Virus record (IMG/VR): IMGVR_UViG_3300024346_009495
Coordinates: 1 to 35,311 of that record
Direction: 5' to 3' (one strand)
Source: a virus
Length of the DNA: 35,311 bases
Shown in pieces: positions 2,352 through 34,880 of the stretch. Both the position numbers and the translations under genes were made by a program. The notes beneath the pieces are model-generated. The model had not been told where the DNA came from. It did no database searches and worked only from the letters and a program-made list of their open reading frames with translations. The stretch's first letter is position 1; the number at the start of each line of letters is the position of its first letter.

Positions 2352-3011
2352 TTATTGGTTTTTTTTGCTCCTAAAGTCTATCTTCCAATAAACTCCTCCC
2401 TTAATATAAGGAATAAACTCGCCATCTATACCATTGTTTGTCTTGTTCCATACCCCAAATCCAAACTCGTATATTTTATCAGTTGGTGTTTTATATAATA
2501 GAGAAGTTCCCAGGGAATAAACGTAATTAGGTTTATCTAAACCCCCATTCAGACCCAAATATAGATTACCCCTAGGTTCTTCTTTTATTTTTTGTATCTT
2601 TTCTTTAACCGGTACTTTAATCTTAGAAAAGTACTTTCTAGAAATGATATTGCTTCCCGATACAGTATCAATGACTGTAATATAGCCATAATCAAGCTTG
2701 AGAGTATCAATCTTAACTTTCTTCGCATTATAGATGTTTAATATTGCTAATGTGTCAATTATAGGCTGTACCATTACATCTCTATAAATTATAGTGTCTT
2801 TTAAAACTGGAAAAGGCACGGGTAAATCAAGATACAGGGTATCGTGTATAAATGTTGTATCAACAGATTTTTGTCCGATAGAGTCTCTCTCCTTATCTGA
2901 AATTTTTCTTGGGGAACTATTATTCTTACAGCTATAGAAAAACTGGGAGATTACTAGGATTAACACCACTACTATGGTGTTTAGTTGGGGTTTGTCGTGT
3001 TTTAAGTTCAT
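2352..3011 (-). CDS. Putative lipoprotein with beta-rich C-terminus
   Basis: The 219 aa protein starts MNLKHDKPQ and has one hydrophobic stretch (NTIVVVLILVISQFFYSC), ending in a cysteine at about residue 28, with K-N-N following. This reads as a lenient Bacteroidota lipobox with signal peptidase II cleavage before the Cys. Residues 35-145 are rich in Asp, Thr, Ile and Pro with repeated short strands (IDTLAILN, IDTLKLDYG, ITVIDTV). The last 75 residues (NLYLGLNGGLDKP ... FIPYIKGGVYWKIDF) look like amphipathic strands of an outer-membrane-type sheet. This suggests a lipid-anchored envelope protein. A phage outer-membrane spanin subunit is possible but unproven; no partner motif is visible. Confidence 0.6.
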   Translation of the reverse strand: MNLKHDKPQLNTIVVVLILVISQFFYSCKNNSSPRKISDKERDSIGQKSVDTTFIHDTLYLDLPVPFPVLKDTIIYRDVMVQPIIDTLAILNIYNAKKVKIDTLKLDYGYITVIDTVSGSNIISRKYFSKIKVPVKEKIQKIKEEPRGNLYLGLNGGLDKPNYVYSLGTSLLYKTPTDKIYEFGFGVWNKTNNGIDGEFIPYIKGGVYWKIDFRSKKNQ

Positions 3012-3063
3012 TTTATACTTTAGGTCGTGTAACTAAAGCATAGGTTTAAAGCTATACTTAAAT

Positions 3064-3792
3064 CTATTTTGGGAATACTCCTTTTTTGATCATCTTATCT
3101 AAAATGTTTGCACATGCTATGTCCAATGCTTTTTTTGTGGATGTGCTAATAGTTGATTGATTAAATTTTATAGGATCTAAAGAAGCATCAGCAACAAGTG
3201 TTAATTCTCTTGTTGTCTTAGCTTCGCCAAGTCCAGATGCTGCTATGATTGCTCCGGTTTCAGCATTAGTAAACCTAACTTGAAGTCCTAGTCTTGTTAC
3301 TAGATTGTCTTTAATACCATCTTTTAAGCTTATAGACTCATCTTCAGACACCGAATAATCATAAACCTCAATCTCAACAAAATAGTGAGCCAATTTAATC
3401 TTTCCTCTGCCGTCTAACTTGTTTTCGGAAATTCCTGATTGAGAAGCTTGGAATTGCTTAACCATTCTATTCTTGATCTCAGTTTTATCCTCTGTGAATT
3501 CAAAACGATTAAGATTATCGAGATATTCCAATACTATATTGGTAACACCAAGGCCTACCCTTTTCTCTTTTAATTCTGGGTATGCCTCGTATGTCTCATC
3601 ATTAATACCACACTTCAAAATCTGAATATTCTTTTTCGGTCCTTCGTAATCAAGGTAAGCCGATATGTCTTTCTTTTTTTCAAAGTCAGCTTTAAAATCT
3701 TCAGTCTTAGTTTTTCCTATCGTCTGTGCATTTACACACACTGATGTTCCGATAAGAAAAAAAGTTCCTATAACAAATTTAGATAAATTCAT
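3064..3792 (-). CDS. CsgG/HfaB-like exported protein
   Basis: The 242 aa protein has a Sec signal peptide (residues 1-22, ending VNAQ). The mature part resembles the CsgG family: a long helix after an aromatic/acidic strand (VLEYLDNLNRFEFTEDKTEI), a Q/S-rich segment (KQFQASQSGISENK), then the strand pair LAHYFVEIEVYDYSVSED and LGLQVRFTNAETGAIIAAS, with a C-terminal helix that contains a Cys. CsgG forms the outer-membrane pore that exports curli subunits. Family members are usually lipoproteins, whereas this one has a signal peptidase I type end. It sits at the downstream end of a module of exported proteins, and a smaller CsgG-like gene lies at its start (11763-12269). The family call is by eye. 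Confidence 0.6.
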   Translation of the reverse strand: MNLSKFVIGTFFLIGTSVCVNAQTIGKTKTEDFKADFEKKKDISAYLDYEGPKKNIQILKCGINDETYEAYPELKEKRVGLGVTNIVLEYLDNLNRFEFTEDKTEIKNRMVKQFQASQSGISENKLDGRGKIKLAHYFVEIEVYDYSVSEDESISLKDGIKDNLVTRLGLQVRFTNAETGAIIAASGLGEAKTTRELTLVADASLDPIKFNQSTISTSTKKALDIACANILDKMIKKGVFPK

Positions 3793-3801
3793 TTTGTTGA
3801 A

Positions 3802-4035
3802 TTATTTTTTAACCTCTGGTCCTTCATACCAGATATTACCTGGATCATTTTTAAACGTTCCGTCTATTTTCCAGGATACTCTATTAGCGATGTCTTGGCT
3901 TCTTTCTTCCTGTCCTGAAACTTGAAGATAAACAAAAAACATTTGAGTTGATAATGCTGCAAAGATCCAAAATCCTACGAGAATAAAATAGAGTCCAAAT
4001 GCTCTATCTGCTGCTACTGTTAAAAACTTTTTCAT
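3802..4035 (-). CDS. Small single-pass membrane protein
   Basis: A 77 aa protein with one clear membrane segment (residues about 14-36, LYFILVGFWIFAALSTQMFFVY). The N-terminus is basic and short; the remaining 40 residues are polar and end in EGPEVKK. The positive N-terminus favours an N-in, C-out orientation. The leader contains AAACACGACACCCCC directly before the ATG, a sequence that recurs in other leaders of this module. The gene lies 9 bases upstream of the CsgG-like gene start, so the two are probably coexpressed. Function unknown. Confidence 0.6.
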   Translation of the reverse strand: MKKFLTVAADRAFGLYFILVGFWIFAALSTQMFFVYLQVSGQEERSQDIANRVSWKIDGTFKNDPGNIWYEGPEVKK

Positions 4036-4109
4036 GGGGGTGTCGTGTTTTTATTTTTGTATTTGAAAAAGAACGGAGTATTACCTCCGCTCTTTGACTT
4101 TATAGTTAA

Positions 4110-4367
4110 TTAAGCCTCTTCTTCTGGCTTATCTGCTGGTGCTTTTTTAGTAAATTTATCGATTGTATCTGCACCCATACCAATCGCTGTTATTACCATC
4201 ACTGCGTTTACCAATTCTGTTGCTGGTTTAAAATGCTCTTCAGTAAAAGAATTTGCTAGCATTGTTCCACAAAGAAACAAAGCTCCAATAAATGCAATAA
4301 CGGGTTTAATTGATGTTGATCCTCTTTCATCTTTAAAAAGTTCAACTAACCATTGTTTAAAATTCAT
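4110..4367 (-). CDS. Holin-like protein with two membrane segments
   Basis: An 85 aa protein with a short amphipathic N-terminus (MNFKQWLVELFKDERGS), two predicted membrane helices (about 22-40, VIAFIGALFLCGTMLAN, and about 51-69, ELVNAVMVITAIGMGADT) and a charged C-terminal tail (KKAPADKPEEEA). Size, topology and charged tail fit class II holins, which form lesions in the inner membrane at lysis. It is one of five small membrane proteins encoded in a row (3802-5358), so a structural or secretion role cannot be excluded. No lysozyme gene is adjacent; the nearest is at 20691. Confidence 0.55.
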   Translation of the reverse strand: MNFKQWLVELFKDERGSTSIKPVIAFIGALFLCGTMLANSFTEEHFKPATELVNAVMVITAIGMGADTIDKFTKKAPADKPEEEA

Positions 4368-4392
4368 GTCGTATTTTTATATTTTTTCGGGT

Positions 4393-4959
4393 TTATCCCT
4401 CGAAATTATCTTTTAATAATCCACATTTTTGACATTCAAGTTCTCCGTCATTATCAGAATCTCCCCATACATGCTCACACTGTCTGTGTGATTCGTATTC
4501 AAGTTTTTCCATTTCTTGCTCGTGTTCTTGTTCATCTTTAGCTAATTCAAAATCCTGTTTATTCTCTACTACAGCTAATTCTCTAGCAGCTTGTGCTCCT
4601 GCAACAAATGCATCAGGAATAGTTGGGGCATATGGTTTATTAGTTTCTTTCATATCATTAGTATGTGATAGAGTAGTACCATCTTCCTCGTCCATCTTCT
4701 GAACTAACATCTTATCTTTGTCTGTATCAGAGAACCAGTAGTCAATAATTTTACCATAGGATCCAATAAAAGCTCCTAGTAACAGAAGAAGTAATTCTTT
4801 CCATTCCCCTGCCATTTTAGTTCCTACCCCTATAGCTGCGAACATACCTGCTATAATTAACATAAATCCACCTAACACTAATGCAGTAATGTACCATCTA
4901 CGAGTCATCATTGCATTTAATAAGTCTTTAAATCCGGTTGGCGTTTCTTGCTTACTCAT
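4393..4959 (-). CDS. Two-pass membrane protein with C-terminal zinc ribbon
   Basis: The 188 aa protein has two membrane helices (about 23-45, ITALVLGGFMLIIAGMFAA, and 54-70, KELLLLLLGAFIGSYGK). A long charged region follows (80-155) whose later half is a likely coiled coil (KDEQEHEQEMEKLEYE). At the C-terminus C161-x-H163 and C176-x-x-C179-G form a putative zinc-binding site. The membrane part resembles phage holin-type or superinfection-type proteins. The zinc ribbon is unusual for a holin and may bind another protein or nucleic acid on the cytoplasmic side. Its start overlaps the stop of a 34-codon gene (ATGAGTAA), which suggests coupled translation. Confidence 0.6.
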   Translation of the reverse strand: MSKQETPTGFKDLLNAMMTRRWYITALVLGGFMLIIAGMFAAIGVGTKMAGEWKELLLLLLGAFIGSYGKIIDYWFSDTDKDKMLVQKMDEEDGTTLSHTNDMKETNKPYAPTIPDAFVAGAQAARELAVVENKQDFELAKDEQEHEQEMEKLEYESHRQCEHVWGDSDNDGELECQKCGLLKDNFEG

Positions 4960-5056
4960 CTTTCTTGTTCTTTATTTTTGTGCCATAATTAATCATCCAT
5001 GCAATAAAAACTATAAAAAATAATACAGTTCCTATTTGATAATTAGTTATTACCAT
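4952..5056 (-). CDS. 34-aa single-pass membrane micro-protein
   Basis: The gene starts with ATG at 5056, inside the last codons of the upstream gene (CAATGGTAA), and ends with TAA at 4954-4952, inside the start of the downstream gene (ATGAGTAA). The product, MVITNYQIGTVLFFIVFI plus 16 residues ending NKKDE, has one hydrophobic helix (about 8-24) and a basic-acidic tail. Overlaps on both sides strongly suggest coupled translation and argue that it is real despite its length. Micro-proteins of this form act as holin, antiholin or assembly subunits in other phages; the role here is unknown. Confidence 0.65.
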   Translation of the reverse strand: MVITNYQIGTVLFFIVFIAWMINYGTKIKNKKDE

Positions 5057-5358
5057 TGAGCTGGCTTTTCTTTAAATTCATCTCCCTCTTTTTTCTTAGG
5101 AGCTGGTGCAGCTGGTTTAGCTGTTCCTGCATTACTGCCTCCTTGAATAATTACAGTTTTACCTGCTGATTGTTGTTGCTGATTTGAATTTGTAATGTTA
5201 ATTACTGGTGCTGCAGCAGGCGGTGCTGCTTCTTTATCACCTCCACCTAATAGAGTAGTTAAAAATACTCCTCCTGCAGTTACGACTGTACCAAGAATTC
5301 CTATGATAGTCTTTTTTAATCCTGACCAGGTTCCGTCATTTTGTGTTTCCTCGCTCAT
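5050..5358 (-). CDS. Membrane protein with Pro/Ala/Gln-rich tail
   Basis: A 102 aa protein with one membrane segment (about 15-39, LKKTIIGILGTVVTAGGVFL) after a short polar N-terminus. The tail is low complexity: an Ala/Pro run, NITNSNQQQQSAGK, then Pro/Ala/Lys and an acidic-basic end (EGDEFKEKPAQW). It is the first gene after a 170-base leader that carries a promoter-like element and a GCAA-loop hairpin, so it probably starts a transcript covering the small membrane genes below it. The extended tail suggests a tether reaching into the periplasm or cytoplasm. No family is recognised. Confidence 0.6.
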   Translation of the reverse strand: MSEETQNDGTWSGLKKTIIGILGTVVTAGGVFLTTLLGGGDKEAAPPAAAPVINITNSNQQQQSAGKTVIIQGGSNAGTAKPAAPAPKKKEGDEFKEKPAQW

Positions 5359-5473
5359 TTTTTTTAATTTATATTCTTTTTAATGGCTTAGAAAAATCCC
5401 CTGATTCGGAACTTACTTTTACAGGATATCTTTAGATGGATTACATCTTTTGAAGATCTGAAAGATATGATAT

Positions 5474-5525
5474 GAAAGAATTGCTTCTTTCAAACTGAAT
5501 GAGGATTTTTCAAGATTATATATCT
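5474..5525 (-). promoter_or_regulatory. Promoter-like leader element, copy 1
   Basis: Minus strand: GATATATAA (5524-5516), a conserved block (AATCCTCATTC), then the hairpin GAAAGAA-GCAA-TTCTTTC (5491-5474) with a GNRA-type tetraloop. The same order occurs at 12388-12443. It starts right after the stop of the outer-membrane-protein gene and lies about 120-165 bases before the ATG at 5358. The rest of the 170-base gap holds no gene. Confidence 0.5.
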
Positions 5526-5528
5526 TTT

Positions 5529-7019
5529 TTATAACATAATTCTGGATCCAATCATGAAATTATGCAATATTGGTGTTTCTGTCTGGGTAGATCCAGAAAA
5601 CTTATAGTTGAAGTTAAGTCCAAATCTTCCAGTCAATTTAAAATCATATGAGAATCCAGTCATGAATCCATATTGTCTATTAACAAGAGTTTGATTAGTT
5701 GAAGGATTCCAAGAAATCGGGGAGCTTGTTATAAAAATCTGAGGAGCCAATGAAGATTTCTTATTTAATGGGTAGATCTTTGTCCAGAATCCAATAGCAG
5801 ATACAGACGCAGAATAATCATACCTATTACCATTCTTTAATAATAAACTTACAATCCCTATGTTATATCCGTATGTTCCTATTTTCGGATCAGGTTTAAT
5901 ATAGGTGTAACCCTGCATAATCATTAGATTTCCTTGCAAATATGCTGCAGTAATTGAATAAGAGTCAATATCTTTTAATTTACCTTGCTTGAAATTCATT
6001 TTAGTATATCCCCCATTCAAAGCAAATTGATCAAAGGTTGTCCATATCATAGATGTTAATCCCCAGCTTTCTGTTCCTGTCATAGACGATTTACTTATGC
6101 CAGTAGAAATCATTGCGGCATATTTTCCGTCTTTAGTTTCTGTTATTGCAAGATCGGAAGCAACTAAAGTCGGATTACTGATAGATTGTTTTTTCTTTTT
6201 ATCTTCTTCTTTCTTTTTCTCTTCCTCTTTTTTCTTATCATCCTCCTTCTTTTTTTCTTCTTTCTTACTTTCCTCTTTCTTTTCTTCTTTTTTAGTTTCG
6301 GATTTACTTTCCTCTTTCTTTTCTTCGGTTTTGCTTTCTGATTTACTTTCTGATTTTGATTCTGATTTAGTTTCTGCCTTGGATTCAGATTTTTGTTCAG
6401 TAGATCCACCACTACTTTTACTTTCTGAAGATGAAGAACTACTACCACCTGACGAAGAGCTACCTCCCGATGATCCGCCGCTTGCTGCAGGCGGAGAACT
6501 AGAGCCTCCAGTTGCTGCACCACTTGCTGCTCCTGATGCTGCTCCGCTTGCTGCGCCCGATGCTGCACCTGATGCTGCACCACTTGCTGCTCCTGATGCT
6601 GCAGATGATGCTGCTCCGCTAGCTGCTGAACTTGCTGCAGATGATGCTGCTCCTGATGCTGCAGATGATGCTGCTGCTGAGGCTGCAGATGCTGCTGCAG
6701 AAGCTGCTGCTGCAGCCGCAGCTTGGGAAACTGTTTGCTGAACAGTTTGGGTAACAACCGTACTTACCGGACACGGTCTTGTACTATAATCTTGGTAAAC
6801 ATCGTTTAACCATTTTTGAACAGTCCCATTATTTACTTGAGACGCATCGAATGTTTTTATCTGATTATAAAAAGCAATCATTACACCCCCGTTTGGCAGG
6901 GGAGAAGATACAACCAGTTTAATTTCTCCTGTACATTTATCAATATACGTTTGGGTGAATATCTGACCATTCACTCTTGAAGCCATTACCAATAAAAATA
7001 ACACCAATAATTTCCTCAT
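5529..7019 (-). CDS. Outer-membrane beta-barrel protein with long low-complexity stalk
   Basis: The 496 aa protein has a signal peptide (1-19, ending VNGQ) and a small N-terminal domain with two Cys (29 and 83). An Ala/Ser/Gly repeat follows (about 99-200, repeats of GAAS), then a Lys/Glu/Ser tract (about 199-278). Residues 280-496 alternate hydrophobic and aromatic residues (YGYNIGIVSLLLKNGNRYDY, YGFMTGFSYDFKLTGRFGLN) and end in a hydrophobic strand, as in outer-membrane barrels. The order suggests an N-terminal head displayed on a flexible linker, or a periplasmic spacer before the barrel. The stalk's skewed composition produces long false frames in other readings. It lies between the lipoprotein pair and the small membrane genes. 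Confidence 0.65.
   Translation of the reverse strand: MRKLLVLFLLVMASRVNGQIFTQTYIDKCTGEIKLVVSSPLPNGGVMIAFYNQIKTFDASQVNNGTVQKWLNDVYQDYSTRPCPVSTVVTQTVQQTVSQAAAAAAASAAASAASAAASSAASGAASSAASSAASGAASSAASGAASGAASGAASGAASGAASGAASGAATGGSSSPPAASGGSSGGSSSSGGSSSSSSESKSSGGSTEQKSESKAETKSESKSESKSESKTEEKKEESKSETKKEEKKEESKKEEKKKEDDKKKEEEKKKEEDKKKKQSISNPTLVASDLAITETKDGKYAAMISTGISKSSMTGTESWGLTSMIWTTFDQFALNGGYTKMNFKQGKLKDIDSYSITAAYLQGNLMIMQGYTYIKPDPKIGTYGYNIGIVSLLLKNGNRYDYSASVSAIGFWTKIYPLNKKSSLAPQIFITSSPISWNPSTNQTLVNRQYGFMTGFSYDFKLTGRFGLNFNYKFSGSTQTETPILHNFMIGSRIML
6180..6725 (-). repeat. Low-complexity repeat tract inside the stalk
   Basis: About 545 bases of short, imperfect codon-phase repeats: GCAGCATCA-like triplet units for Ala-Ala-Ser-Gly (about 6480-6725), then AAA/GAA/TCT-rich units for Lys-Glu-Ser (about 6180-6425). 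The tract stays in frame, so copy number can vary by recombination without breaking the gene. Confidence 0.75.
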
Positions 7020-7064
7020 CTGATTTGTTCCCCTATCAAATATTTTTTAAAGATTATACTACTC

Positions 7065-7439
7065 CTAGTTTATTTTATTAAAATCTGTTATTCCTAATAG
7101 ATTATTATTACTATCATAAAGAGCAATTCTATACGCTGAGGAAGGAAGAGCTGATGTGTATACATTTAAAAGATTATCGCCAGACTTAACTTCGCTTGTT
7201 GACTTAGAAACTACTCTATTAGAAATATCATATATTTTAATAGTTACAGTCTGTGCTGATTCTGTTTTAACATTCATAGAAACCTCATTCGTAACAAATG
7301 AATTCTGTAATTTAATCCCGAATGAAGAAGTCATTTTAAGATTTGGATCCATTTGCTGAGAAATTGGTTCAGGAAGATCATGCTTAGTACAGCTATTAAG
7401 TACTATTAAGCTAACGATTAGAAAAGATAATTTTTTCAT
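7065..7439 (-). CDS. Small lipoprotein with T9SS-CTD-like fold, paralogue 1
   Basis: A 124 aa protein with a lipoprotein signal (MKKLSFLIVSLIVLNSC; Cys at 17) followed by TKHDLPEP. The C-terminal 70 residues (VTIKIYDISNRVVSKS, ... DNLLNVYTSALPSSAYRIAL) follow the pattern of the Bacteroidota type IX secretion C-terminal beta-sandwich: an I-Y-D-I-x-N strand, a basic turn, and an LPSSxYxIxL strand. True sorting domains occur on large secreted proteins, so here the fold may only be similar. The next gene (7441-7785) encodes a clear paralogue; the two are separated by one base. The acidic, Pro-containing stretch after the Cys might act as a surface-export signal, which is speculative. Confidence 0.6.
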   Translation of the reverse strand: MKKLSFLIVSLIVLNSCTKHDLPEPISQQMDPNLKMTSSFGIKLQNSFVTNEVSMNVKTESAQTVTIKIYDISNRVVSKSTSEVKSGDNLLNVYTSALPSSAYRIALYDSNNNLLGITDFNKIN

Positions 7440-7440
7440 T

Positions 7441-7785
7441 TTATTTTATTATTATTATTGTTTTGTTTACTGTTGATCTATTAGAATCTTCCAGTAAAAG
7501 ATATAAAGAACCTTTGGGTAAAGATTTTGTATAAAGTATTAATTTATTCTGACCGGTTTTTCCTGTGAATTTTTCTCTTGTTATAACCTGATTATTTTCA
7601 GAATTACCAATAGTCAAGGTATATGTTCCTTCGGATTTTAAATCAAACATAATTTCTTGTCCATCATTCACCTCACTCTGTGTAACTGAAAATATATTTA
7701 CACTTGATGATGCTGTCGGCTCCGGTAAATCCATTTTTGTACAGGAAGAAATTATTATCGTTAATATGAGATATAGTTTTTTCAT
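7441..7785 (-). CDS. Small lipoprotein, paralogue 2
   Basis: A 114 aa protein with a lipoprotein signal (MKKLYLILTIIISSC; Cys at 15) followed by TKMDLPEP, almost the same post-Cys sequence as its neighbour. The rest is beta-rich (EGTYTLTIGNSENNQVITRE, LILYTKSLPKGSLYLLLED) and aligns with the neighbour's final domain. It starts in the stop codon of the 767-aa lectin/cohesin gene (TAATG), so translation is probably coupled to it. Likely role: an outer-membrane anchored partner of the exported proteins encoded just upstream. That role is inferred from position only. Confidence 0.6.
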   Translation of the reverse strand: MKKLYLILTIIISSCTKMDLPEPTASSSVNIFSVTQSEVNDGQEIMFDLKSEGTYTLTIGNSENNQVITREKFTGKTGQNKLILYTKSLPKGSLYLLLEDSNRSTVNKTIIIIK

Positions 7786-10088
7786 TAGTTTATTTTAACA
7801 TTTAATTGTTTACCTGCCTTATTGACTGCATCGGTAGTTCCAATCCCCATTAATCCTAAAGTGTTCGTAATTTTTCTGGTGGGTGCGAATGTAATTTTAT
7901 ATTCGGTGGTATTATCTAATGATGTACTACCGTCGCTTATTAACGAACCAACATTCACATAAGTTCCTTTATTAGTTCCATAGTTCATAGGGTTACCTTT
8001 CGTTTTAAAATCAATTTTTTCGAATCTTAATATTGAATTATCATAATTTAATTGAAATTGTGTACCTACTACTTCTTGTTGTAATGGATCTAATGTGATA
8101 TACGCGTATACCTTATCACCAATAATCTCTGTAATAATCGAAGAATTTATTTCGTTTGGAACAGAATTTGTTCTTACAGTCATTGTTCTAATAGAGTTAC
8201 TTGCAACACTACTGACAGTTTGTTGTGCAGAATGAGATAGATTTACGTCGCCCTTCCAGGTTACGTTAACATTATAAGTGTTATTAAGTGTACCAGTATT
8301 TAAACTAAATGGAAATAAACTTCTTGTAAACTTAAATTGGGTTTTCCAGTTTGATTTAGTTATTGCATCATAATCTGTTTTACCGTACAATTTCATTAAA
8401 TAAGTTAATGCAGAATATTCTGTAAGCGATTGAACACCTGTTAAATGCTGAAGAAGTTTGTATGTGTCTGCTTCATTAAATATACCATTGTCATCTACAT
8501 CTGCATTCATAAATTGAATCCCTGACGTAAATTCATTTCCACTTTCGTTTCCAAATAATCCACCGTTTGATAATTCTTTAAAAGCTAAATAAACGTCTGT
8601 TACACTTACAATACTATTATATAATGTGTTTAAATCTGTTTGGTTGGTGTATGATAATTCAATCCCGTGTTGTTTAAATGCACTTGTTTGTTCGAATGAA
8701 ATACTACAGGCAAATGCATAATCAGTATTTGATCCGTTAACATTTCTAATATATTGGTTGAATGACGATGTTCCATCAGTTACCTTCGTTAAAATAGAGG
8801 GTACACTATATTGAGCCCAGCCGTTTGCGTCGTGGGATAAGTAATTAACCGGTCCGTCATATGCATCTAATATCTTAACCTTTGTGACTGTTGTTGGGTC
8901 TACATTTCCGAATTGCCTCATATCAATCAACAACCTGCTAACTCCTGTACCCATCCAAGTAGCATTTGGATTTACATATGACCATTCTGACCCTCCTCCT
9001 GCTATTATCGGTTTATAACCAGTATTTATTTTTGCAGTATCTAAATCATTTGTAATATCAACTTTACCCAAACCGCTTATTGATCTTGGTGAATTTGTTG
9101 TTGTACTCCATAGATTATTTACATACGTGTTTGCTTTTGATGAAAATTTAGTTTCATCCACATTACCACCAAAGTCAAAGTTAAATCTTGCAGTTAGAAC
9201 CTCTCCGTTTGAGTGAGTTACAGAATTTGTATAAAACTCCGTGAATGTTGCATCATCAGGATTAATCCAAGTTCCGTATTCAATTACATAAGCACAACTA
9301 AAATGATTGGGTAAATCGTTCCATTGAGAACCCCCGCCCCATTTGGTTACTGCGTAGTCTTCATCACCACTATTGTTTGGTTCACCGCCTGCCCAGTTAT
9401 TATATTGGCCAGGAATGTTTCCATTTGTTTGTCCGTTATTGATTTTGATTAGAGTTCCTTTTTCGGGACCAGCATCAATTGTCCATCTTGCTTCACTTAC
9501 TTCGTCAGTTAGTGCAAACCAAATATTACCTTGAGGTACATTGTTGAAAATAAAAGCATCTTCATCTGCCGAAGTGATTGTTACCAAATATCCCTTTTGA
9601 CCTTTAAATGTTGTCAATAGAGATGCTGCTCTTGCGGCAGTGTAAGTTGCTCCTGTTGCTATTGGTCTATAAAAGTGTCCATTTACACCATTATAAAAAT
9701 ATCCCGTTGGGTTTACCGTTGCGGCTACTGATAGCGCAACATTACCTTTTACCGAACCTGTATTTACTTTTAGGGATTGTAATGCAGTATTGATATCAGC
9801 CATTGTTCCTGTTACAACCAAACGAGTCTTATTACCGCTTAAAGTAAATCCACTTGCTGCGGTTAGTCCGGTTGTTGTGTTTAATACGAAGGTAGTTCCA
9901 GATGGTGGATTGACTAAACTGATTGAGGTTAATAAGGTCGAAGTTGCACTAAATCCGCTCAATACAAATCCACTTGCATCTTGTGCGGTGGTGGATTGTA
10001 AAAACGATTTAGAGTCAGGAGCAGATACACTCTGTCCGAACCCTAAAAAAGATGCGAATAATAATAAAATTACTAGTAATTTTTTCAT
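7785..10088 (-). CDS. Exported protein with C-type lectin, dockerin-like and cohesin-like domains
   Basis: The 767 aa protein has a Sec signal (1-19, FLGFGQ). Residues 20-130 form a Ser/Thr/Val-rich Ig- or cadherin-like domain. Residues about 136-272 are a C-type lectin domain: WFALTD, then YNNWAGGEPNN, DYAVTKWGGGSQWND and CAYVIEY. A beta-rich region follows (275-495). Residues 529-550 (NADVDDNGIFNEADTYKLLQ) match a dockerin-type calcium loop with D-x-D-x-N-G. The last 110 residues (VYAYITLDPLQQ ... GTQFQLNYDNSILRFEKIDF) resemble a cohesin. Such domains bind sugars or proteins outside the cell. A Sec signal means it leaves the host cytoplasm through the membrane, unlike most phage receptor-binding proteins. 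It shares its C-terminal half with the next gene. Confidence 0.75.
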   Translation of the reverse strand: MKKLLVILLLFASFLGFGQSVSAPDSKSFLQSTTAQDASGFVLSGFSATSTLLTSISLVNPPSGTTFVLNTTTGLTAASGFTLSGNKTRLVVTGTMADINTALQSLKVNTGSVKGNVALSVAATVNPTGYFYNGVNGHFYRPIATGATYTAARAASLLTTFKGQKGYLVTITSADEDAFIFNNVPQGNIWFALTDEVSEARWTIDAGPEKGTLIKINNGQTNGNIPGQYNNWAGGEPNNSGDEDYAVTKWGGGSQWNDLPNHFSCAYVIEYGTWINPDDATFTEFYTNSVTHSNGEVLTARFNFDFGGNVDETKFSSKANTYVNNLWSTTTNSPRSISGLGKVDITNDLDTAKINTGYKPIIAGGGSEWSYVNPNATWMGTGVSRLLIDMRQFGNVDPTTVTKVKILDAYDGPVNYLSHDANGWAQYSVPSILTKVTDGTSSFNQYIRNVNGSNTDYAFACSISFEQTSAFKQHGIELSYTNQTDLNTLYNSIVSVTDVYLAFKELSNGGLFGNESGNEFTSGIQFMNADVDDNGIFNEADTYKLLQHLTGVQSLTEYSALTYLMKLYGKTDYDAITKSNWKTQFKFTRSLFPFSLNTGTLNNTYNVNVTWKGDVNLSHSAQQTVSSVASNSIRTMTVRTNSVPNEINSSIITEIIGDKVYAYITLDPLQQEVVGTQFQLNYDNSILRFEKIDFKTKGNPMNYGTNKGTYVNVGSLISDGSTSLDNTTEYKITFAPTRKITNTLGLMGIGTTDAVNKAGKQLNVKIN

Positions 10089-10089
10089 A

Positions 10090-11766
10090 CTATTCTACAA
10101 CTAAGTTTATTTTATTACCCTTTGCATCAACAGCATCAGATAAAACAAAGTAGAATAAACCTGCTGTGTTTGTTAATACCGTTTTAGGAGTGAATACCAA
10201 CGTGTAAGGTGTTCCGGGTTTAATCCTTGCTGTTTTTAATTGATCAATAGAACCAAATGTTAATCTACCATTATTATGTGTTGAGAAATTTGTTATTGTA
10301 CTACCTGCATCAAATATTACATTATCTAAAGTTAATTTAGATTCATCGTAATTCATAATAACTTGTAAACCTGCTAGATCAGCCTTCGATAAATTTGTAG
10401 TTAATATAACTTTACCACCTTCTAATTTAGAAGATACACTTAAGGTTGCATTCTCTAAAGGAGCTGCAGAATATGCCATTGATGTGGTTGACATTGTTTT
10501 GTATGCAGTAGGAGCGGTTGAAGAACCAGGATTGATTGAATTTGCATAATTTCCAGTGGAAATTCTTGATGCAATTTCTGTCGGAGAAGATGAATGAGAC
10601 CAATCTAAATCTCCACCCCAAGCAAATACCATATCAACTGCCTGATTCGCTGCTGTTACTTTGGTCTTATATGTTGGTGTTCCGTCCAGCCAACTTTGAT
10701 TTAATAGACCATTATACCATTTGAAATTAACTACCCCATTAACAGGAGCAGCATTAGAAGGAATCATAGCACTACTAGAAACGTCTATTCCCATAACACT
10801 AGAAAATAAATAATACGAATCGCTCTCGCTGAATGATGTTTTATTTTTAGTTACTAGACCAACTTTTTTCTCTAATACAGGGTATGTGAAATAAGTAGAT
10901 GCTCCTGCAATGTCTGTTTGGGATACTCCAAGGAATGCTTTATAAGCATCTGAAACTGTTACTATATTATTCATGAAAGTTTTTTGCATTGCTGCATTTA
11001 CAAAAACTGCAAATGAATCACCAACCTTCGTCTGTGTCGTAAATATAGCTTCACCTGATGCATCAAGTGATTTTGTTGCAATAGCTTGAGCTGTCCAATT
11101 AACATCTCCGTTGGTTGTTAGTGGTATTAAAGAGACACTATGTGAAGCTATATCATATCCGGTTGGAAATAGAACTCTTACTTTAAATTGTGACGTATTT
11201 CCAATAACGTTAGATAATGAAGCTAAGCCTGTTGTTGTTGTAATCGGAGAAATATTGGCACCAGCAGCATCAATAGCATATGATAGATCTAATTTATGAA
11301 TATCGTTATAAGCTCCGAGATCCTTAATAACATATTTTTGTGTCGCAATGTCGCCATCGACTGATGCATCTGTTCTTTGAACAGTAAGTTGGCCTGCGTT
11401 CCAATCAGCATTAGCTGCGTATCCCCAAGGAGATGCTAGATATTGTGCATACAAACTTGTAGCAGTAATACTGTTAGCAGTGCTTGCAGTGAATTTGTAG
11501 CCAGTCCAGCCTGTATAATATGTTTGAACAGAAGTTCCTTGAGACCACGCCGTTGAAACATAAGTCAATGCTTTATTATTATATTGGTATCTTAACCAAA
11601 AATAACGGGGTGTTGTAGTTCCTTTAGCGACCGTATACTTTACTGAGATAGTATCTCCAACTTTCAATCCCGTTGTTGGTGTTACAGATTGATTTACTGT
11701 TAATTGTGCAAAGCACGAAGCACCAGCAAAGAACATGAGTGTCGTGAATAGAATTAGTTTTTTCAT
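10090..11766 (-). CDS. Exported cohesin-like protein, paralogue of the lectin protein
   Basis: The start chosen is ATG 11766 (558 aa), which opens a Sec signal (MKKLILFTTLMFFAGASCFAQ) and overlaps the preceding stop as ATGA; the frame extends 11 codons further but without a signal. The N-terminal domain (22-140, GDTISVKYTVAKGTT, RYFWLRYQYNNKALTYVS) is cohesin-like. The C-terminal half parallels the 767-aa neighbour: V-S-D-A-Y-K-A-F, a degenerate dockerin loop (TKNKTSFSESDSYYLFSSVM) that lacks most calcium ligands, the motif WGGDLDWSHS against WKGDVNLSHS, and a final cohesin-like domain (LAGLQVIMNYDESKLTLDNV). One partner with an intact dockerin and one without suggests asymmetric assembly. 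There is a one-base gap to the next gene. Confidence 0.7.
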   Translation of the reverse strand: MKKLILFTTLMFFAGASCFAQLTVNQSVTPTTGLKVGDTISVKYTVAKGTTTPRYFWLRYQYNNKALTYVSTAWSQGTSVQTYYTGWTGYKFTASTANSITATSLYAQYLASPWGYAANADWNAGQLTVQRTDASVDGDIATQKYVIKDLGAYNDIHKLDLSYAIDAAGANISPITTTTGLASLSNVIGNTSQFKVRVLFPTGYDIASHSVSLIPLTTNGDVNWTAQAIATKSLDASGEAIFTTQTKVGDSFAVFVNAAMQKTFMNNIVTVSDAYKAFLGVSQTDIAGASTYFTYPVLEKKVGLVTKNKTSFSESDSYYLFSSVMGIDVSSSAMIPSNAAPVNGVVNFKWYNGLLNQSWLDGTPTYKTKVTAANQAVDMVFAWGGDLDWSHSSSPTEIASRISTGNYANSINPGSSTAPTAYKTMSTTSMAYSAAPLENATLSVSSKLEGGKVILTTNLSKADLAGLQVIMNYDESKLTLDNVIFDAGSTITNFSTHNNGRLTFGSIDQLKTARIKPGTPYTLVFTPKTVLTNTAGLFYFVLSDAVDAKGNKINLVVE

Positions 11767-12269
11767 TGTGTTAATAGTTGTTTTATTGCTGCTCCGCATA
11801 CCTTTTTAATAACAGTAGACACCGATTGCTGATTCATTTTTCCGCCTTCATCGACTATCAATGTAGACGTGGAAATCTCGGAAGATTTTTCCGTTATTAA
11901 ACATTCTTTTATTTTCTTCCCTTTATTATCTAAAAGATATGCTTTTATTTTTAATACTGTTTCAGCATCGCTCTTATGAAATATTGCGACGCTAGATTTC
12001 GTTGTTTCGACATCAAAGAATATGAGATCAATATTGATTTTGTAATCAAATTTAGTCTCATCCTCTACTATGTCAAAGTTTGTTTCCTGAAGATATTCTT
12101 CTAATAGGTTTCTAAAGCCAAATGTTAATGGTCTAGATCCTGCTAAATTGCCGATTTGGATTTTGTTGGTTATTTCACCAATGAGAACAGATTTTCCTTG
12201 ACCAAATGATTGGAAAGCAAAAAAAGATGCTATTAATGTTAGTGAGATTGATTTGAATAACCTTGGCAT
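11763..12269 (-). CDS. Short exported CsgG-like protein
   Basis: A 168 aa protein with a Sec signal (about 1-23, FFAFQSFGQ). The mature part has the order expected of a small CsgG/curli-assembly-like domain: a strand after the signal (KSVLIGEI), a helix with an acidic-aromatic end (FGFRNLLEEYLQETNFDIVE), paired strands (YKINIDLIFFDVE and AETVLKIKAYLLDNKGKKI) and a C-terminal helix (VIKKVCGAAIKQLLTQ). It lacks the long insertions of full CsgG, so the family call is tentative. It is the first gene of the exported module, behind a roughly 210-base leader with a promoter-like element and two hairpins, and its stop overlaps the start of the 558-aa gene. Confidence 0.5.
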   Translation of the reverse strand: MPRLFKSISLTLIASFFAFQSFGQGKSVLIGEITNKIQIGNLAGSRPLTFGFRNLLEEYLQETNFDIVEDETKFDYKINIDLIFFDVETTKSSVAIFHKSDAETVLKIKAYLLDNKGKKIKECLITEKSSEISTSTLIVDEGGKMNQQSVSTVIKKVCGAAIKQLLTQ

Positions 12270-12387: not shown

Positions 12388-12443
12388 GTAAAAAAGGGTT
12401 TACTTTTTTCACCGAATGAGGATTCTTTCGGGTTTATATATCT
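12388..12443 (-). promoter_or_regulatory. Promoter-like leader element, copy 2
   Basis: Minus strand: GATATATAA (12442-12434), a spacer, AATCCTCATTC (12424-12414), then an AAAAAAG/CTTTTTT hairpin (12409-12390). Same order and spacing as 5474-5525. It lies about 145-170 bases before the ATG at 12269. No gene is visible in 12296-12483. Confidence 0.5.
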
Positions 12444-16820: not shown

Positions 16821-17315
16821 TCATAAACCCTGGCGAATGTTTCGAAATCCTCCTCGGAAATTCCCAGAATTCTTTGATGGAATCCAATAATTGAAGTAAA
16901 AATCCCTCACAAAATCCAGGGTTATAAACCTATTAACATAACGACCACGAAGCCCAAAATCCTTAAAATCTATATTATCCCCATTTATATTCAGAGAATG
17001 GGTGGGCAGGATTGGTTCCATACCATCTCTTTCGTTAAGAGAATTTATCTCGGATGATGTAAATTTTAAAAAATCCCCGTTATTTAATAACAATCTAAAT
17101 TTTGTGGTCCGGGTTGTGCCTGATAGAAAAGATTTTGCCGAAAGGAATACGGGTTCTATTGATATTTCATCAAGGTTGAAAATATCAATCGCAATATCCC
17201 CAAGGTCCTTTACTTTTCTTCCGTCTTTGATTGTTGTTTTCCATTTGGGGATTTCATCTTCTGAATAATCCCAGATTGCGGTTTCCCGCTCACTTAGAAG
17301 ATTGGTCTTTATCAT
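16821..17315 (-). CDS. Hypothetical protein overlapping the carbamoyltransferase end
   Basis: A 164 aa soluble protein starting MIKTNLLSERETAIWDYSED. It mixes strands and turns (FRLLLNNGDFLKFTSSEINS) and ends in an aromatic and Arg/Gly-rich tail (FYFNYWIPSKNSGNFRGGF, then RNIRQGL). Its start lies 26 bases inside the preceding carbamoyltransferase frame, a long overlap that suggests coupled translation. No family is recognised. Confidence 0.6.
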   Translation of the reverse strand: MIKTNLLSERETAIWDYSEDEIPKWKTTIKDGRKVKDLGDIAIDIFNLDEISIEPVFLSAKSFLSGTTRTTKFRLLLNNGDFLKFTSSEINSLNERDGMEPILPTHSLNINGDNIDFKDFGLRGRYVNRFITLDFVRDFYFNYWIPSKNSGNFRGGFRNIRQGL

Positions 17316-18990
17316 GCTTAGAAATTAAATAGTTTCCTAAAACTAAGAAATCCATTTCAGAATCAAGGAATCTTATGATGGCATCTTTTGGATATAATGT
17401 AATTGTTTGATCCTTAAAATTAAAAGAAGTATTAAGTAAGATTGGATACCCGGATAAATCCTCAAAAGTTTTCAAAAGTCTATAAAATCTAGGATTTTCA
17501 TAGGATGTTACAGTTTGGACTCTTGCTGTTCCATCGATATGTGTGATAGCAGGAAGATCCCATCCTGATTTAACTTTAACCACCATATTCATATACGGAA
17601 CTGCACCATTAGTCTCAAAAAATTTATTTGCGCTCTCTAGTGTTACTGAAGGAGCAAATGGTCTAAACATCTCCCTCTTTTTAATTACCGAATTTATTCT
17701 GTCTTGCATGCCGGGAAATAAAGGGGATGCTATGATAGATCTGTTTCCAAGAGCTCTAGCACCAAACTCCATTCTTCCCTGAAACCACCCCAGAACATTT
17801 CCCTCATTAAGCAGGTTTGAGCATCTTAAAATTAGATCTGTTGGATCCATATATTCATACAGGATTCTCCCGGAAAAATGTTTAATTGAATCCTCTATTT
17901 CTTGTGCACTAAAAGAGGGTCCTTGGTATGCATCAAACGGTCCCTTTCTTTTCCACCTCTTGGCCATATTTATATAGTGAAGGCAAGCCCCTATAGCAGA
18001 TCCGCCATCGGAGGGAGATAGAGGAACCCACACTTCTTTATAATCAGTTTTTAGTGAAATCTGCGCATTTGCAACTCCGTTGTAAGCGCATCCCCCTCCT
18101 AAACATAAATTATCGCTATTATTAAGCTCATAGCTGAACTTTACCAGATCAATTAATATTTCTTCATAGATCTTTTGAACTGATGCTGCTATGTGCTTAT
18201 AATGAGGTTCTAGAGGATCCTCGGCGAATCTTGGCATCACATCAAGGAGAGCAGGAAGATTTTCATTAAACATTACAGAATCTGAATAGTCCCACGAGAA
18301 GTATCTCATGTCTATCACAACATTGCCGCCGGTATAAGAAATTGTTTTTCTGATTAAATCATAATATACTGAGGGATCTCCATAAGATGCTAGTCCCATA
18401 ACTTTATATTCACCCTCATTAGGCTTAAACCCTAGAAATGCTGTAAATGCTGAATAAAAAAGTCCAAGAGAATGAGGATAATTTATTGAATGTAATTTTT
18501 TTATTTTATTTCCATTTGCTTTGGAAATAGTAACTGTTTCTTTTTCACCAACACCATCAACAGTTATTATGTTGCATTCTGTAAAATTTGAAGTGAAATA
18601 TGCTAAGGAAGCATGGGATAGATGGTGGTCAACAAAATAGATTTTTTTAGAAAATCTAAGCTCCTTTGATAGAACAGATTTTACCGAATCTTCATTCTTT
18701 TCCAGCAAATGATTTACGATCCTCCTAAGGTTTTTAAGAGGTCTTCTCTTAAACGTTTCTATTACTCTTTGTTTCTTTATGTCTGGATTTTCGTACCAAC
18801 AGACAACATCGATATCATTTTCTGATATGCCATTAGATTGGAGTAGCCATTTGATGGTTTGTTTCGGAAAGGAGCTATCTCCCTTTCTACCAGAAAACCT
18901 TTCCTCCTCTGCTGCTCCAAGCAGGGTATTGTTCCTATACAGGCAAGCTGCAGAGTCATGATAAAATGCAGAGATCCCAAGTATATACAT
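17290..18990 (-). CDS. O-carbamoyltransferase, NodU/CmcH/TobZ family
   Basis: The 566 aa protein is full length for the family. The N-terminal Kae1-like domain has the opening GISAFYHDSAACL (HDSA at 11-14), the metal-binding HHLSHAS (122-128), EGEYKVMGLASYG (192-204) and LGGGCAYNGVAN (298-309). The C-terminal YrdC-like domain (about 370-566) has GRMEFGARALGNRSIIASP (405-423) and KKREMFRPFAPSV. These enzymes move a carbamoyl group from carbamoyl phosphate and ATP onto a sugar or polyketide hydroxyl. All key motifs look intact, so it is probably active. In a phage with other sugar genes (22.4-25.2 kb) a glycan substrate is likely. No sugar acceptor can be read from sequence. GATATAAATTT lies about 15-25 bases before the ATG. 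Confidence 0.9.
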   Translation of the reverse strand: MYILGISAFYHDSAACLYRNNTLLGAAEEERFSGRKGDSSFPKQTIKWLLQSNGISENDIDVVCWYENPDIKKQRVIETFKRRPLKNLRRIVNHLLEKNEDSVKSVLSKELRFSKKIYFVDHHLSHASLAYFTSNFTECNIITVDGVGEKETVTISKANGNKIKKLHSINYPHSLGLFYSAFTAFLGFKPNEGEYKVMGLASYGDPSVYYDLIRKTISYTGGNVVIDMRYFSWDYSDSVMFNENLPALLDVMPRFAEDPLEPHYKHIAASVQKIYEEILIDLVKFSYELNNSDNLCLGGGCAYNGVANAQISLKTDYKEVWVPLSPSDGGSAIGACLHYINMAKRWKRKGPFDAYQGPSFSAQEIEDSIKHFSGRILYEYMDPTDLILRCSNLLNEGNVLGWFQGRMEFGARALGNRSIIASPLFPGMQDRINSVIKKREMFRPFAPSVTLESANKFFETNGAVPYMNMVVKVKSGWDLPAITHIDGTARVQTVTSYENPRFYRLLKTFEDLSGYPILLNTSFNFKDQTITLYPKDAIIRFLDSEMDFLVLGNYLISKHDKDQSSK

Positions 18991-19671: not shown

Positions 19672-20136
19672 TTATTCAACATTAACAATTCTAAAGTATC
19701 CCCGATGATCTACTTCACCTATACTAAATCCATTTTCAAATTTAGAATAAAATCCTGAGGTAAAAATACATCTGTTTTTATTATCAATTTCCCATTCCAT
19801 TTGAGGTGCATCAACAAAAGACCAATCTAGATCTTGATGTTTTTGAATACCTTCGCCGAAACAGAAAGAATTATTAACCTGTATCTCATTAATTTCTGGA
19901 TAATAAGTTGCCCAATAAAAAACCCTGCGGTCTGTATCCAATTCATATGGCCCAGAACCGATCTTTACTGCTCGGCCTGGATGAAGCTTAAATTCAGAAC
20001 CAAATGGGGCATGTCCAGTAAGATTTCCAGATCTCTGTGATTTTAAACTTTCTAACCAATCAGGTAATAGCTCGATTGTTATTGAGCTAGGAGTAGTGGT
20101 TTCTCCAAAATTTTCAAATAATTTGACGTGCTTCAT
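19672..20136 (-). CDS. Leader-tagged hypothetical protein
   Basis: The 154 aa protein opens with the shared leader MKHVKLFENFGETTTP, with possible protease sites after LFE (residue 8) and FGE (12). The body (17-154) is rich in aromatics and Gly, with DTDRRVFYWATYYPEINEIQ (about 67-86) and ENGFSIGEVDHRGYFRIV near the end, which fits a beta-rich fold. No family is recognised. At DNA level, the first 26 bases are nearly the same as those of the genes starting at 25521 and 32154. An AATATATAA motif lies 5 bases before the ATG. Confidence 0.65.
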   Translation of the reverse strand: MKHVKLFENFGETTTPSSITIELLPDWLESLKSQRSGNLTGHAPFGSEFKLHPGRAVKIGSGPYELDTDRRVFYWATYYPEINEIQVNNSFCFGEGIQKHQDLDWSFVDAPQMEWEIDNKNRCIFTSGFYSKFENGFSIGEVDHRGYFRIVNVE

Positions 20137-20690: not shown

Positions 20691-21659
20691 TTAAACCATA
20701 TTTTTAGCAACTAAATCATTTGCATAACCTTTACCGTTAGAAACATACGCAACAAAAGGACCTGAATTCATATTATTACCCAATCCTGCATTTAAATTGG
20801 AAACGGCAACAACTGCTTTATCTCTGTCATTTGGTCCCTCTAATGATATTTCAGGGTATTTGTTTTTAAATATCTTATCTCCCATTCCTGATAAGAAATA
20901 CAATGCACAAATTTGAGCTGCAACCTTAGGATCATTCAATTGCTCTGGATTAGAAACTATATCTATACCAGGAAGATCCTTCATTGCGTCTGGATTCGAA
21001 GATTTATACTTATTATAAAGATCTTGCATTCTTTGATATCCGCCCTTTCCTGTTATTCCATTAAATCCACCGCCTCGATATTTACCGCCTTCACCAGGAG
21101 CAGTATTTCCAAGGGATTGTCCCACTTTAGTTTGATATCCATAAACTAAATCCCAGAATTTTTTATCAAACTCTTCTTGACCTAATTGTCTCCACGAATT
21201 GATTTCTTCTTCGTGTCCAACAACCCTTGAGCTAAACATTTCTTTCATTCTAGGAAATCCTGTTCTGATATAAGATTCTTCTGTCCCAGGAGCCCAGCCT
21301 GTTTCATTACCAATTATTCCAATTATCGCTGCTCTTAGATTTTCATCCTTAAACCCATTTTTTTGTAATGTATCAGTCAGGATTTTAATATTAGCTTGTT
21401 TTTCTGCTTCAGTTGGAACTTTTTTATTTGAGGCAGGCGCTCCGCTACTTGACGTTCCTCTAATTGGTTCGTCAACATCGCCAAGAAAATCACCGAATCC
21501 TGAACTTTTTATTATTTCTGCTGCTTTTTTAAGCGAGTCGTAAGTTCCTTGAGCAACGCCGCTTGGATCTTTCATTGGGTCTTTTGCCGGGTCTTTCACC
21601 GGGTCCTTTTTTGTCTCTTGCTCATTTATAAATCCTGAAAATTGTTTTAGGTGCTTCAT
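20691..21659 (-). CDS. Leader-tagged GH19-like lysozyme/chitinase-fold hydrolase
   Basis: The 322 aa protein has the leader MKHLKQFSGFINEQE, then four KDP repeats (about 18-32) and a Ser/Pro linker to about residue 85. The catalytic part (90-322) matches lysozyme-superfamily endolysins: IIGIIGNETGWAPGT with E119 as likely acid, and GEGGKYRGGGFNGITGKGGY (189-208), the Y-R-G-x-G-F-x-x-[IL]-T-G-x-x-x-Y signature of GH19-like phage lysozymes. It should cut the glycan chain of peptidoglycan. There is no Sec signal, so it would need a holin, tail or head route. The tag raises the question of whether it is virion-borne rather than a lysis enzyme. Confidence 0.8.
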   Translation of the reverse strand: MKHLKQFSGFINEQETKKDPVKDPAKDPMKDPSGVAQGTYDSLKKAAEIIKSSGFGDFLGDVDEPIRGTSSSGAPASNKKVPTEAEKQANIKILTDTLQKNGFKDENLRAAIIGIIGNETGWAPGTEESYIRTGFPRMKEMFSSRVVGHEEEINSWRQLGQEEFDKKFWDLVYGYQTKVGQSLGNTAPGEGGKYRGGGFNGITGKGGYQRMQDLYNKYKSSNPDAMKDLPGIDIVSNPEQLNDPKVAAQICALYFLSGMGDKIFKNKYPEISLEGPNDRDKAVVAVSNLNAGLGNNMNSGPFVAYVSNGKGYANDLVAKNMV

Positions 21660-21660: not shown

Positions 21661-21975
21661 TTAATTTCTAAATTTATGGGGGAACATCATTCTTAGTTCA
21701 TGCCCTTGTGGTATATCTTTTTTTCTAATTCCAAAGAGTTTCTCTTCTGGACAGGGATCTTCCCCGTTCCATTTAAAGCCATTGTTACATGCCCATGTTT
21801 TCATTCCCATATTATACGATTGACCCACAGAATAAGGGAATCTAATTCCTGAGTTATTTTCTATGGATTCTATCCTTCCTCCTTTAATAGAGAAAGTTAT
21901 CTCCCTGTTCTGTCTAGAGGTTAATGTTATATTCTCTCCGTCTGAATATGATTCGTACACTTTTATATGTTTCAT
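21661..21975 (-). CDS. Leader-tagged small protein
   Basis: The start chosen is ATG 21975 (104 aa), which opens MKHIKVYESYSDGENITL; the frame extends 8 codons upstream, but a GATATATAG motif lies in that extension. The leader has VYE at residues 6-8 as a candidate cut site. The body is beta-rich with TFSIKGGRIESIENNSGIRF, two Cys (WACNNGFKW and EDPCPEEK) and a basic end (MMFPHKFRN). No family recognised. It ends 1 base before the lysozyme gene start. Confidence 0.6.
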   Translation of the reverse strand: MKHIKVYESYSDGENITLTSRQNREITFSIKGGRIESIENNSGIRFPYSVGQSYNMGMKTWACNNGFKWNGEDPCPEEKLFGIRKKDIPQGHELRMMFPHKFRN

Positions 21976-22455: not shown

Positions 22456-23004
22456 TTATTGAATGTAATATAGCTCGGGGTATTCTACTATAACGTGGAT
22501 ACCCCCATTTTCATATGCATTCTTATAGATATCTTCAATATCATTCCATTTATTAAGATCATGGAAATTAATATTAGGACACATCGATTTAAATTCTGCC
22601 AAATAATTACCTCTATGTTGATGTCCAGGATCTAAAGGCTTATCTGATCCTTTTCCTAACCTAATAATCATATTAGCATCCCATTTTCCCTGGCTCATTA
22701 AATTTATCTTATCAACATGGTTTACCAATTGATTTGTTGCACAGATTAAAAAATCCCATCTAGGATAAAAAGTGATAACAAAATCTCCAGCCATTGCCAT
22801 TCCTAGCGACATTCCCATTTGGGATTCTTCCATTACCGGTACTTCGATCATCTTATCCTTTGAGACGTTACTGATTGTAGTACTCATAGGATTTCCGTGC
22901 CATAGGAGTTGTTGCCCAATAAAAACAGTATTTGGTTGTTCACCAAGAAATGTCATTGAATTGGTTAGGGCATCTTTGTAAGGTGTATATTCTGGTTGAC
23001 TCAT
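22456..23004 (-). CDS. ThDP-dependent enzyme, pyrimidine-binding (E1 beta / transketolase-type) subunit
   Basis: A 182 aa protein corresponding to the pyrimidine domain of E1beta/transketolase enzymes. The core VPVMEESQMGMSLGMAMAG carries the conserved glutamate (E59 or E60) that activates thiamine diphosphate, followed by FVITFYPRWDFLICATNQLV and NHVDKINLMSQGK. It lacks the C-terminal transketolase domain of about 130 residues present in full E1beta, so it is a minimal subunit. With the E1alpha-like protein encoded directly upstream it would form an alpha2beta2 enzyme with active sites at the interface. Likely substrate: a 2-keto acid and a sugar acceptor, judging by the neighbours (inference). 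Confidence 0.75.
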   Translation of the reverse strand: MSQPEYTPYKDALTNSMTFLGEQPNTVFIGQQLLWHGNPMSTTISNVSKDKMIEVPVMEESQMGMSLGMAMAGDFVITFYPRWDFLICATNQLVNHVDKINLMSQGKWDANMIIRLGKGSDKPLDPGHQHRGNYLAEFKSMCPNINFHDLNKWNDIEDIYKNAYENGGIHVIVEYPELYYIQ

Positions 23005-23021
23005 ATTCTTATTTTATTAAA

Positions 23022-24196: not shown

Positions 24197-24198
24197 TC

Positions 24199-25170: not shown

Positions 25171-25234
25171 AATAATTATAGACATAAAGTATTAATGAAT
25201 TCAAAAAAATCTTCAGTATTTAGGAAACCCCCAC

Positions 25235-30774: not shown

Positions 30775-30779
30775 ATGTA

Positions 30780-32629: not shown

Positions 32630-32638
32630 CTATATATT
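32630..32638 (-). promoter_or_regulatory. AATATATAG motif before 32625
   Basis: Four bases before the ATG. The first bases overlap the stop codon of the preceding gene. Confidence 0.4.
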
Positions 32639-33744: not shown

Positions 33745-33747
33745 TCT

Positions 33748-33756
33748 GTATATATT
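33748..33756 (-). promoter_or_regulatory. AATATATAC motif before 33744
   Basis: Three bases before the GTG; its upstream end overlaps the stop of the preceding gene. Confidence 0.35.
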
Positions 33757-34211: not shown

Positions 34212-34214
34212 CTT

Positions 34215-34223
34215 TTATATATT
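34215..34223 (-). promoter_or_regulatory. AATATATAA motif before 34211
   Basis: Three bases before the ATG. The preceding stop TAA gives its first base. Confidence 0.4.
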
Positions 34224-34876: not shown

Positions 34877-34880
34877 GCTA

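Follow-up and report, generated by a model that had tools for sequence, protein, structure and literature searches.

The uncultivated virus record IMGVR_UViG_3300024346_009495, analyzed here over its whole length of 35,311 bases (the window), carries a block of 12 closely spaced genes on the minus strand, running from position 12269 to 2352. In the direction of transcription these genes are csgS, coh, lec, lp2, lp1, bar, tm102, tm188, tm85, tm77, csgL and p219, names that were coined in this analysis (Table 1). Export signals were identified with a uniform heuristic scan, not SignalP, of 55 non-overlapping open reading frames (ORFs) from the window. The scan revealed eight ORFs with clear export signals, all of them inside the 12-gene block, and these were exactly the eight proteins that an initial annotation of the sequence had named as exported. 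Five carried signal-peptidase-I signals that end in A/G-Q, with Q at +1 (genes starting at 12269, 11766/11799, 10088, 7019 and 3792), and three carried lipoprotein signals (7785, 7439 and 3011). The remaining matches were three membrane anchors, two within the block (3802-4035 and 4393-4959) and one outside it (30223-30783). The probability of all eight signals (8/8) falling in the block by chance was 4e-7, for a block that was picked post hoc.

Table 1. Genes of the exported-protein module in the window; full loci are the 70 related loci flanked by ≥9 kb on either side
Gene	Position	Strand	Description	Basis
csgS	11763-12269	-	smaller CsgG-fold protein	signal peptide ending FGQ; homology to csgL
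coh	10090-11766	-	secreted; N-terminal cohesin and second C-terminal beta domain	AlphaFold2 model; Pfam Cohesin E 1e-4
lec	7785-10088	-	secreted; C-type-lectin-like domain and dockerin-like EF loop	Pfam Lectin_C; motif; coh homology
lp2	7441-7785	-	lipoprotein with T9SS-sorting-domain-like fold	lipobox; family A7 alignment
lp1	7065-7439	-	lipoprotein with T9SS-sorting-domain-like fold	Pfam Por_Secre_tail E 3e-4, below cut-off
bar	5529-7019	-	N-terminal domain, long linker and predicted C-terminal outer-membrane beta-barrel	70/70 full loci; sequence pattern
tm102	5050-5358	-	one membrane helix, Pro/Ala-rich linker, C-terminal W	65/70 full loci
tm188	4393-4959	-	two-helix membrane protein, Cys/His-rich C-terminus; optional	47/70 full loci
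tm85	4110-4367	-	small two-helix holin-like membrane protein; optional	16/70 full loci
tm77	3802-4035	-	inner-membrane anchor with periplasmic tail	separate form of N-terminus fused to csgS elsewhere
csgL	3064-3792	-	larger CsgG-fold protein	AlphaFold2 model; best PDB match CsgG
p219	2352-3011	-	putative lipoprotein, beta-rich C-terminus; optional	lipobox-like signal; 12/70 full loci

The preference of signal peptidase I for Q at +1 (the Q-rule) is specific to Bacteroidetes (PMC5837995). Analysis of relatives of the module revealed that Q-rule signals were kept in 162/163 csgL, 253/271 coh/lec and 152/154 bar proteins, compared with 1 of about 230 proteins from seven control families. In the complete genome of the Flavobacterium phage immuto, seven Q-rule proteins were found and six of them are encoded in one gene run, gp12 to gp18. 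Export signals were likewise kept in nearly all members of the lp family. This conservation strengthens the observation made in the window.

The relatives were collected from IMG/VR, where a csgL query identified 479 related stretches and the csgL homologue of immuto, used as a second query, brought in more distant ones. The only cultured relatives found were the Flavobacterium immuto phages (54% identical in the csgL search). They were reached via csgL only: a barrel search in cultured phages gave immuto itself alone, protein searches with csgS and coh identified no cultured phage, and at the DNA level the whole window matched no annotated phage. Bacterial genome contigs yielded a single csgL homologue; the contig that carries it, 254 kb long and from a Bacteroidetes bin, also has phage-type neighbours, so no bacterial source was found. 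As far as searched, the operon is phage-specific. Across 163 loci, the csgL, coh/lec, bar, csgS, tm102, tm188, tm77, lp and p219 families always lay on the same strand as csgL. A five-part core was evident in the 70 full loci, which include many close relatives and are therefore not independent (12 to 67 csgL clusters, depending on the cut-off); it comprised coh/lec (70/70), csgL (70/70), bar (70/70), csgS (69/70) and tm102 (65/70). Three further genes were optional (Table 1), and c11, a protein similar to tm85, was present in 18/70. The module, whose completeness in related phages the initial annotation had proposed to check, was thus largely intact, with each core family in 65-70 of the 70 full loci. 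Purifying selection was detected on all genes compared.

The most conserved part of the module is csgL, with a mean column identity of 76% over 17 diverse sequences. An AlphaFold2 model built from 33 homologues (mean predicted local distance difference test score, pLDDT, 72.5) had CsgG as its top solved match (Foldseek E 2.9e-7; Z 11.9 over 154 residues, root-mean-square deviation (rmsd) 3.1), with PelC, FlgT and LptE ranking behind it (Z 8-9). The CsgG fold proposed from the sequence was thus confirmed by structure prediction for csgL, and the second proposed CsgG-like protein, csgS, was supported by homology to csgL. Comparison of csgS and csgL profiles built from deep sequence sets gave an hhalign probability of 96.7% (E 3e-10); a shallow first alignment had given a weak match. 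No match to Pfam CsgG (PF03783) was detected at E≤1 in any of the 17 csgL members, the csgL and csgS sequence profiles identified no CsgG in the PDB, and hhalign of csgL against bacterial CsgG profiles gave a weak, collinear match. Weak PDB matches of the two profiles to a 'cohesin subunit' were to eukaryotic SA-2 and were rejected as chance. There is no lipobox in csgL, which carries a Q-rule signal-peptidase-I site instead and is therefore not a lipoprotein. In the model, the long hairpin of csgL (residues 147-168) has 8/22 charged residues, with E150 and D151 invariant. Because this would-be membrane hairpin is so heavily charged, a CsgG-type pore is not supported and seems less likely. The pore, the fibre and the blocking of other phages put forward in the initial annotation stay candidate functions of the module. 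A tm77-like anchor was fused to the N-terminus of csgS in 19 loci, tm77 was a separate gene in 41, and both forms occurred together in 0. This pattern indicates that tm77 and csgS act together, with csgS tethered to the inner membrane on its periplasmic side.

The start of coh is probably at 11766, where the signal peptide begins, not at 11799 of the longer ORF; coh residues are numbered here on the 569-aa ORF from 11799. The AlphaFold2 model of coh (pLDDT 77.5) contained a cohesin at approximately residues 31-199 (Z 13.5, rmsd 2.1, 131 residues), and cohesins occupied the top of the match list in a structure search with this segment. The domain annotated as cohesin-like therefore has a true cohesin fold. 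With CsgG and cohesin as the matches, the structural models did not refute the initial annotation. The second C-terminal beta domain of coh is cohesin-like in relatives. The lec and coh proteins are homologous and fell into one shared BLAST cluster. Residue 530 of lec marks a canonical dockerin-like EF loop, DVDDNGIFNEAD, in line with the dockerin-like assignment made earlier; the second loop of the dockerin-like parts is degenerate. A dockerin-type calcium loop was present in 150/235 members of the coh/lec family, compared with 4 after shuffling and 5/496 other ORFs; Pfam Dockerin_1 gave weak matches in 5/54 relatives. The annotated C-type lectin domain was weak in the window (Lectin_C E 1e-3) and clear in relatives.

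In relatives of coh and lec, Cohesin, Lectin_C and type IX secretion system (T9SS) type A sorting domains all passed the curated cut-offs, and the tips differ, being of lectin C, laminin G, LCCL or PA14 type. In immuto the matches were to Cohesin (6e-9), Lectin_C (3e-15) and, in gp15, the type A sorting domain (E 9e-12). The gene order of immuto, in which gp13 encodes a lectin with a dockerin loop, gp14 a dockerin-like protein and gp15 a cohesin with the sorting domain, reads like an assembly plan. We also examined the lp family, to which the lipoproteins lp1 and lp2 belong. Matches to Por_Secre_tail at E≤0.1 were identified in 23/52 members, and hhalign of this family (A7) with type A sorting domains gave a probability of 91.6% (E 8e-7), compared with ≤0.5% for the other module families. 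In clade A, which contains the window, 24 loci carried lp, 0 the sorting domain and 2 neither; in clade B, 44 carried the sorting domain (44/45 full loci), 0 lp and 1 neither. The two were never found in the same locus. On the features tested, coh and lec of the window, which have no sorting domain, fall outside standard T9SS cargo.

The bar protein has two invariant Cys in its N-terminal domain and a long, variable, low-complexity linker. Its C-terminus displays an alternating-strand beta pattern, with a final L/F in 136/154 sequences; this sequence pattern is the support for the outer-membrane barrel that had been annotated. The tm102 gene lies mostly immediately upstream of csgL. Pfam and PHROGs scans of the module proteins gave no strong family, and a Bacteroidetes-type promoter motif was looked for upstream of the operon and not found. 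The exact word AATCCTCATTC occurs twice on the minus strand, at 12414-12424 in the gap upstream of csgS, where it sits in a small hairpin, and at 5497-5507 in the gap upstream of tm102; it recurs in loci L002-L005.

The module of immuto lies at 10.5-16.4 kb, beside replication and nucleotide genes. Its holin (gp190) and endolysin (gp191) genes are at 43.7-44.8 kb and its virion genes at 80-160 kb, and this placement argues against virion and lysis roles. A GH19 endolysin was present within the locus in 40/70 full loci. Beside or inside the module, immuto gp12 (L082:9935-10513) and L127:12565-13176 encode a DNA/RNA non-specific nuclease that is secreted and has a Q-rule signal. A secreted nuclease was present in immuto and in 18/70 loci, and a putative metalloprotease is another exported neighbour. 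Together with the glycan-binding tips, these exported neighbours fit a role in altering or guarding the surface of the infected cell.

Other genes were noted within or near the module. A TonB-dependent receptor (Plug 2e-8, OMP_b-brl_3 7e-25) occurs within or beside it at L021:6456-8708 and in 14 related loci, and in immuto (L189) glycosyltransferase and sugar-nucleotide genes lie in a row at 49.2-60.0 kb, a further hint of surface change. On the minus strand of the window, at 17290-18990 and 22456-25185, genes of carbamoyltransferase-like, transketolase-like (as halves) and nucleotide-sugar epimerase type may form a cluster that modifies sugars or glycans. At least eight window proteins encoded on the same strand (19672-20136, 20691-21659, 21661-21975, 25282-25521, 26638-27456, 31543-32154, 33756-34211 and 34223-34876) share an MKHLKLFENW-like N-terminal leader, possibly a capsid-targeting leader cut by the prohead protease; those at 20691 and 26638 resemble cell-wall enzymes. 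Three adjacent, paralogue-like proteins at 32638-34891 (minus strand) have the common C-terminal motif SADLGELGF.

Taken together, the export signals, the conservation of the Q-rule and the CsgG-fold, cohesin, dockerin-like, lectin and barrel domains back an exported envelope or surface module in this phage. The explanation we favor, and consider reasonably probable, is that a phage-specific operon remodels the surface of the infected Bacteroidota cell with a glycan-binding scaffold linked by cohesin-dockerin contacts, aided by a core of CsgG-fold, barrel and inner-membrane proteins. Judging from their signals, the module proteins would be exported by Sec, presumably during infection, and coh and lec may then reach the outer surface. 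Cohesin-dockerin contacts would tie coh and lec together and, in relatives, also to the T9SS-anchored cohesin, giving a cellulosome-like scaffold whose tips, by their domains, are predicted to bind glycans. In the clade of the window, the sorting-domain fold appears to have shifted onto the two lipoproteins lp1 and lp2. The csgL, csgS, bar and inner-membrane proteins would form a core with a probable role in scaffold export or anchoring. By analogy, the leading candidate purpose, to which we give a little less than even weight, is to change or mask the surface and thereby keep other phages from adsorbing (superinfection exclusion); aggregation of host cells would come next, at distinctly lower probability.

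Several points weigh against this explanation. Pfam and profile scans identified no T9SS sorting domain in coh or lec of the window, and the split between sorting domain and lp probably reflects a single evolutionary switch, not many. The dockerin-like parts amount to one clear EF loop and a degenerate second, and in some loci the module adjoins an endolysin. Surface location, binding and exclusion are predictions from sequence and models, and the purpose was assigned by analogy.

Four other explanations were weighed. The module could be a true secretion apparatus, with csgL and csgS as rings, bar as the exit, tm102 and tm77 as the inner-membrane coupling and coh and lec as substrates, so that the host T9SS would not be needed. 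Its parts cover the inner membrane, periplasm and outer membrane, the core is always accompanied by coh/lec, the closest folds to csgL (CsgG, PelC and FlgT) are outer-membrane-associated ring proteins, and the surface proteins in the clade of the window are without sorting domains. However, no ATPase or known energy source was identified, the charged hairpin of csgL is unlike a membrane strand, and relatives already possess a T9SS export signal; we regard such an apparatus as possible and on balance unlikely. A bolder version, in which tm102/tm77 anchors, paired csgS/csgL rings and bar would make up a previously undescribed trans-envelope machine that exports the cohesin-dockerin lectin scaffold and assembles it on the infected cell, we hold to be rather doubtful. 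Aggregation or sibling capture, with lectins sticking infected cells to neighbours or particles and thereby helping released phages to meet hosts, was suggested for pelagiphage curli (PMC7029224, PMC9599517) and suits the variable glycan-binding tips. The OM43 phage Melnitz, which carries CsgGF, gave no clumping (PMC9004378), and aggregation seems unlikely to us.

A lysis module that breaks the Bacteroidota outer membrane together with the nearby endolysin and holin-like proteins would account for the GH19 endolysin in many loci and for the holin-like appearance of tm85 and tm188. It is improbable, given that the holin-endolysin pair of immuto is approximately 30 kb from its module, which has neither tm188 nor tm85, and that lysis leaves the lectin, cohesin and T9SS sorting domains unexplained. 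That the proteins are virion components (tail adhesins) merely resembling secreted ones we consider very improbable: C-type lectin folds are known in phage adhesins, but Q-rule signal peptides are kept across 12-67 csgL sequence clusters (cut-off dependent), T9SS sorting domains are present in relatives and the immuto module is away from the virion gene block.

We compared the operon that we interpret as a surface-remodelling module with known systems. Curli (type VIII secretion) operons occur in pelagiphages and in Melnitz (PMC7029224, PMC9599517, PMC9004378), and like them the present module is a phage operon that groups exported proteins with a CsgG-fold protein and likely alters the envelope of the infected cell. 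In contrast to phage curli, it has two CsgG-fold proteins that are too distant for the Pfam model and are not lipoproteins, its cargo consists of cohesin and lectin proteins, and its hosts are Bacteroidota. No Pfam match to CsgA/B, CsgE or CsgF was found among ten module proteins. With neither a Pfam CsgG match nor a lipobox, and without CsgA/B/E/F, the operon is not curli on the features tested. The fold of csgL is also, in general, that of PelC/FlgT/LptE-type outer-membrane accessory proteins, a clearly weaker match than CsgG, and no Pel, flagellar or Lpt partners of csgL were found.

Cryophages carry T9SS type A sorting-domain genes, including one for a PA14 protein, for which a role in competition or superinfection was proposed (PMC7468147). 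Phage genes with type A sorting domains are shared with the relatives studied here; those of the Cryophages are single variable genes, called a unique occurrence, whereas the present ones belong to a conserved multi-gene cohesin/dockerin/lectin operon with a CsgG-fold and barrel core. Cellulosome scaffoldins share the cohesin fold, dockerin-like EF loops on partner proteins and surface anchoring, as read here from genes and models; they differ in that the present system is phage-borne, has lectin tips in place of enzymes and an incomplete dockerin. No cellulase was found within the module. Our literature search, which had most subscription journals outside its reach, identified no paper that describes a cohesin-dockerin scaffold in phages and no proteomics of immuto. 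Curli and T9SS cargo have each been described in phages before; the combination of features in the present operon is a new one, and as a system the operon is undescribed. Beyond the initial annotation, the analysis adds the T9SS sorting domains of relatives, the tm77-csgS fusion, the phage-specific five-part core and a cultured relative.

Phages are seldom thought to build structures outside the cell that they are killing. The conservation of the core in all or nearly all of the 70 full loci, alongside 479 related IMG/VR stretches and with lectins and host-type sorting signals of its own, implies that many uncultured Bacteroidota phages spend several kilobases on this module. As a cultured phage-host pair carries it, its purpose is directly testable, and the module offers a handle on what phage-coded curli and T9SS cargo do.

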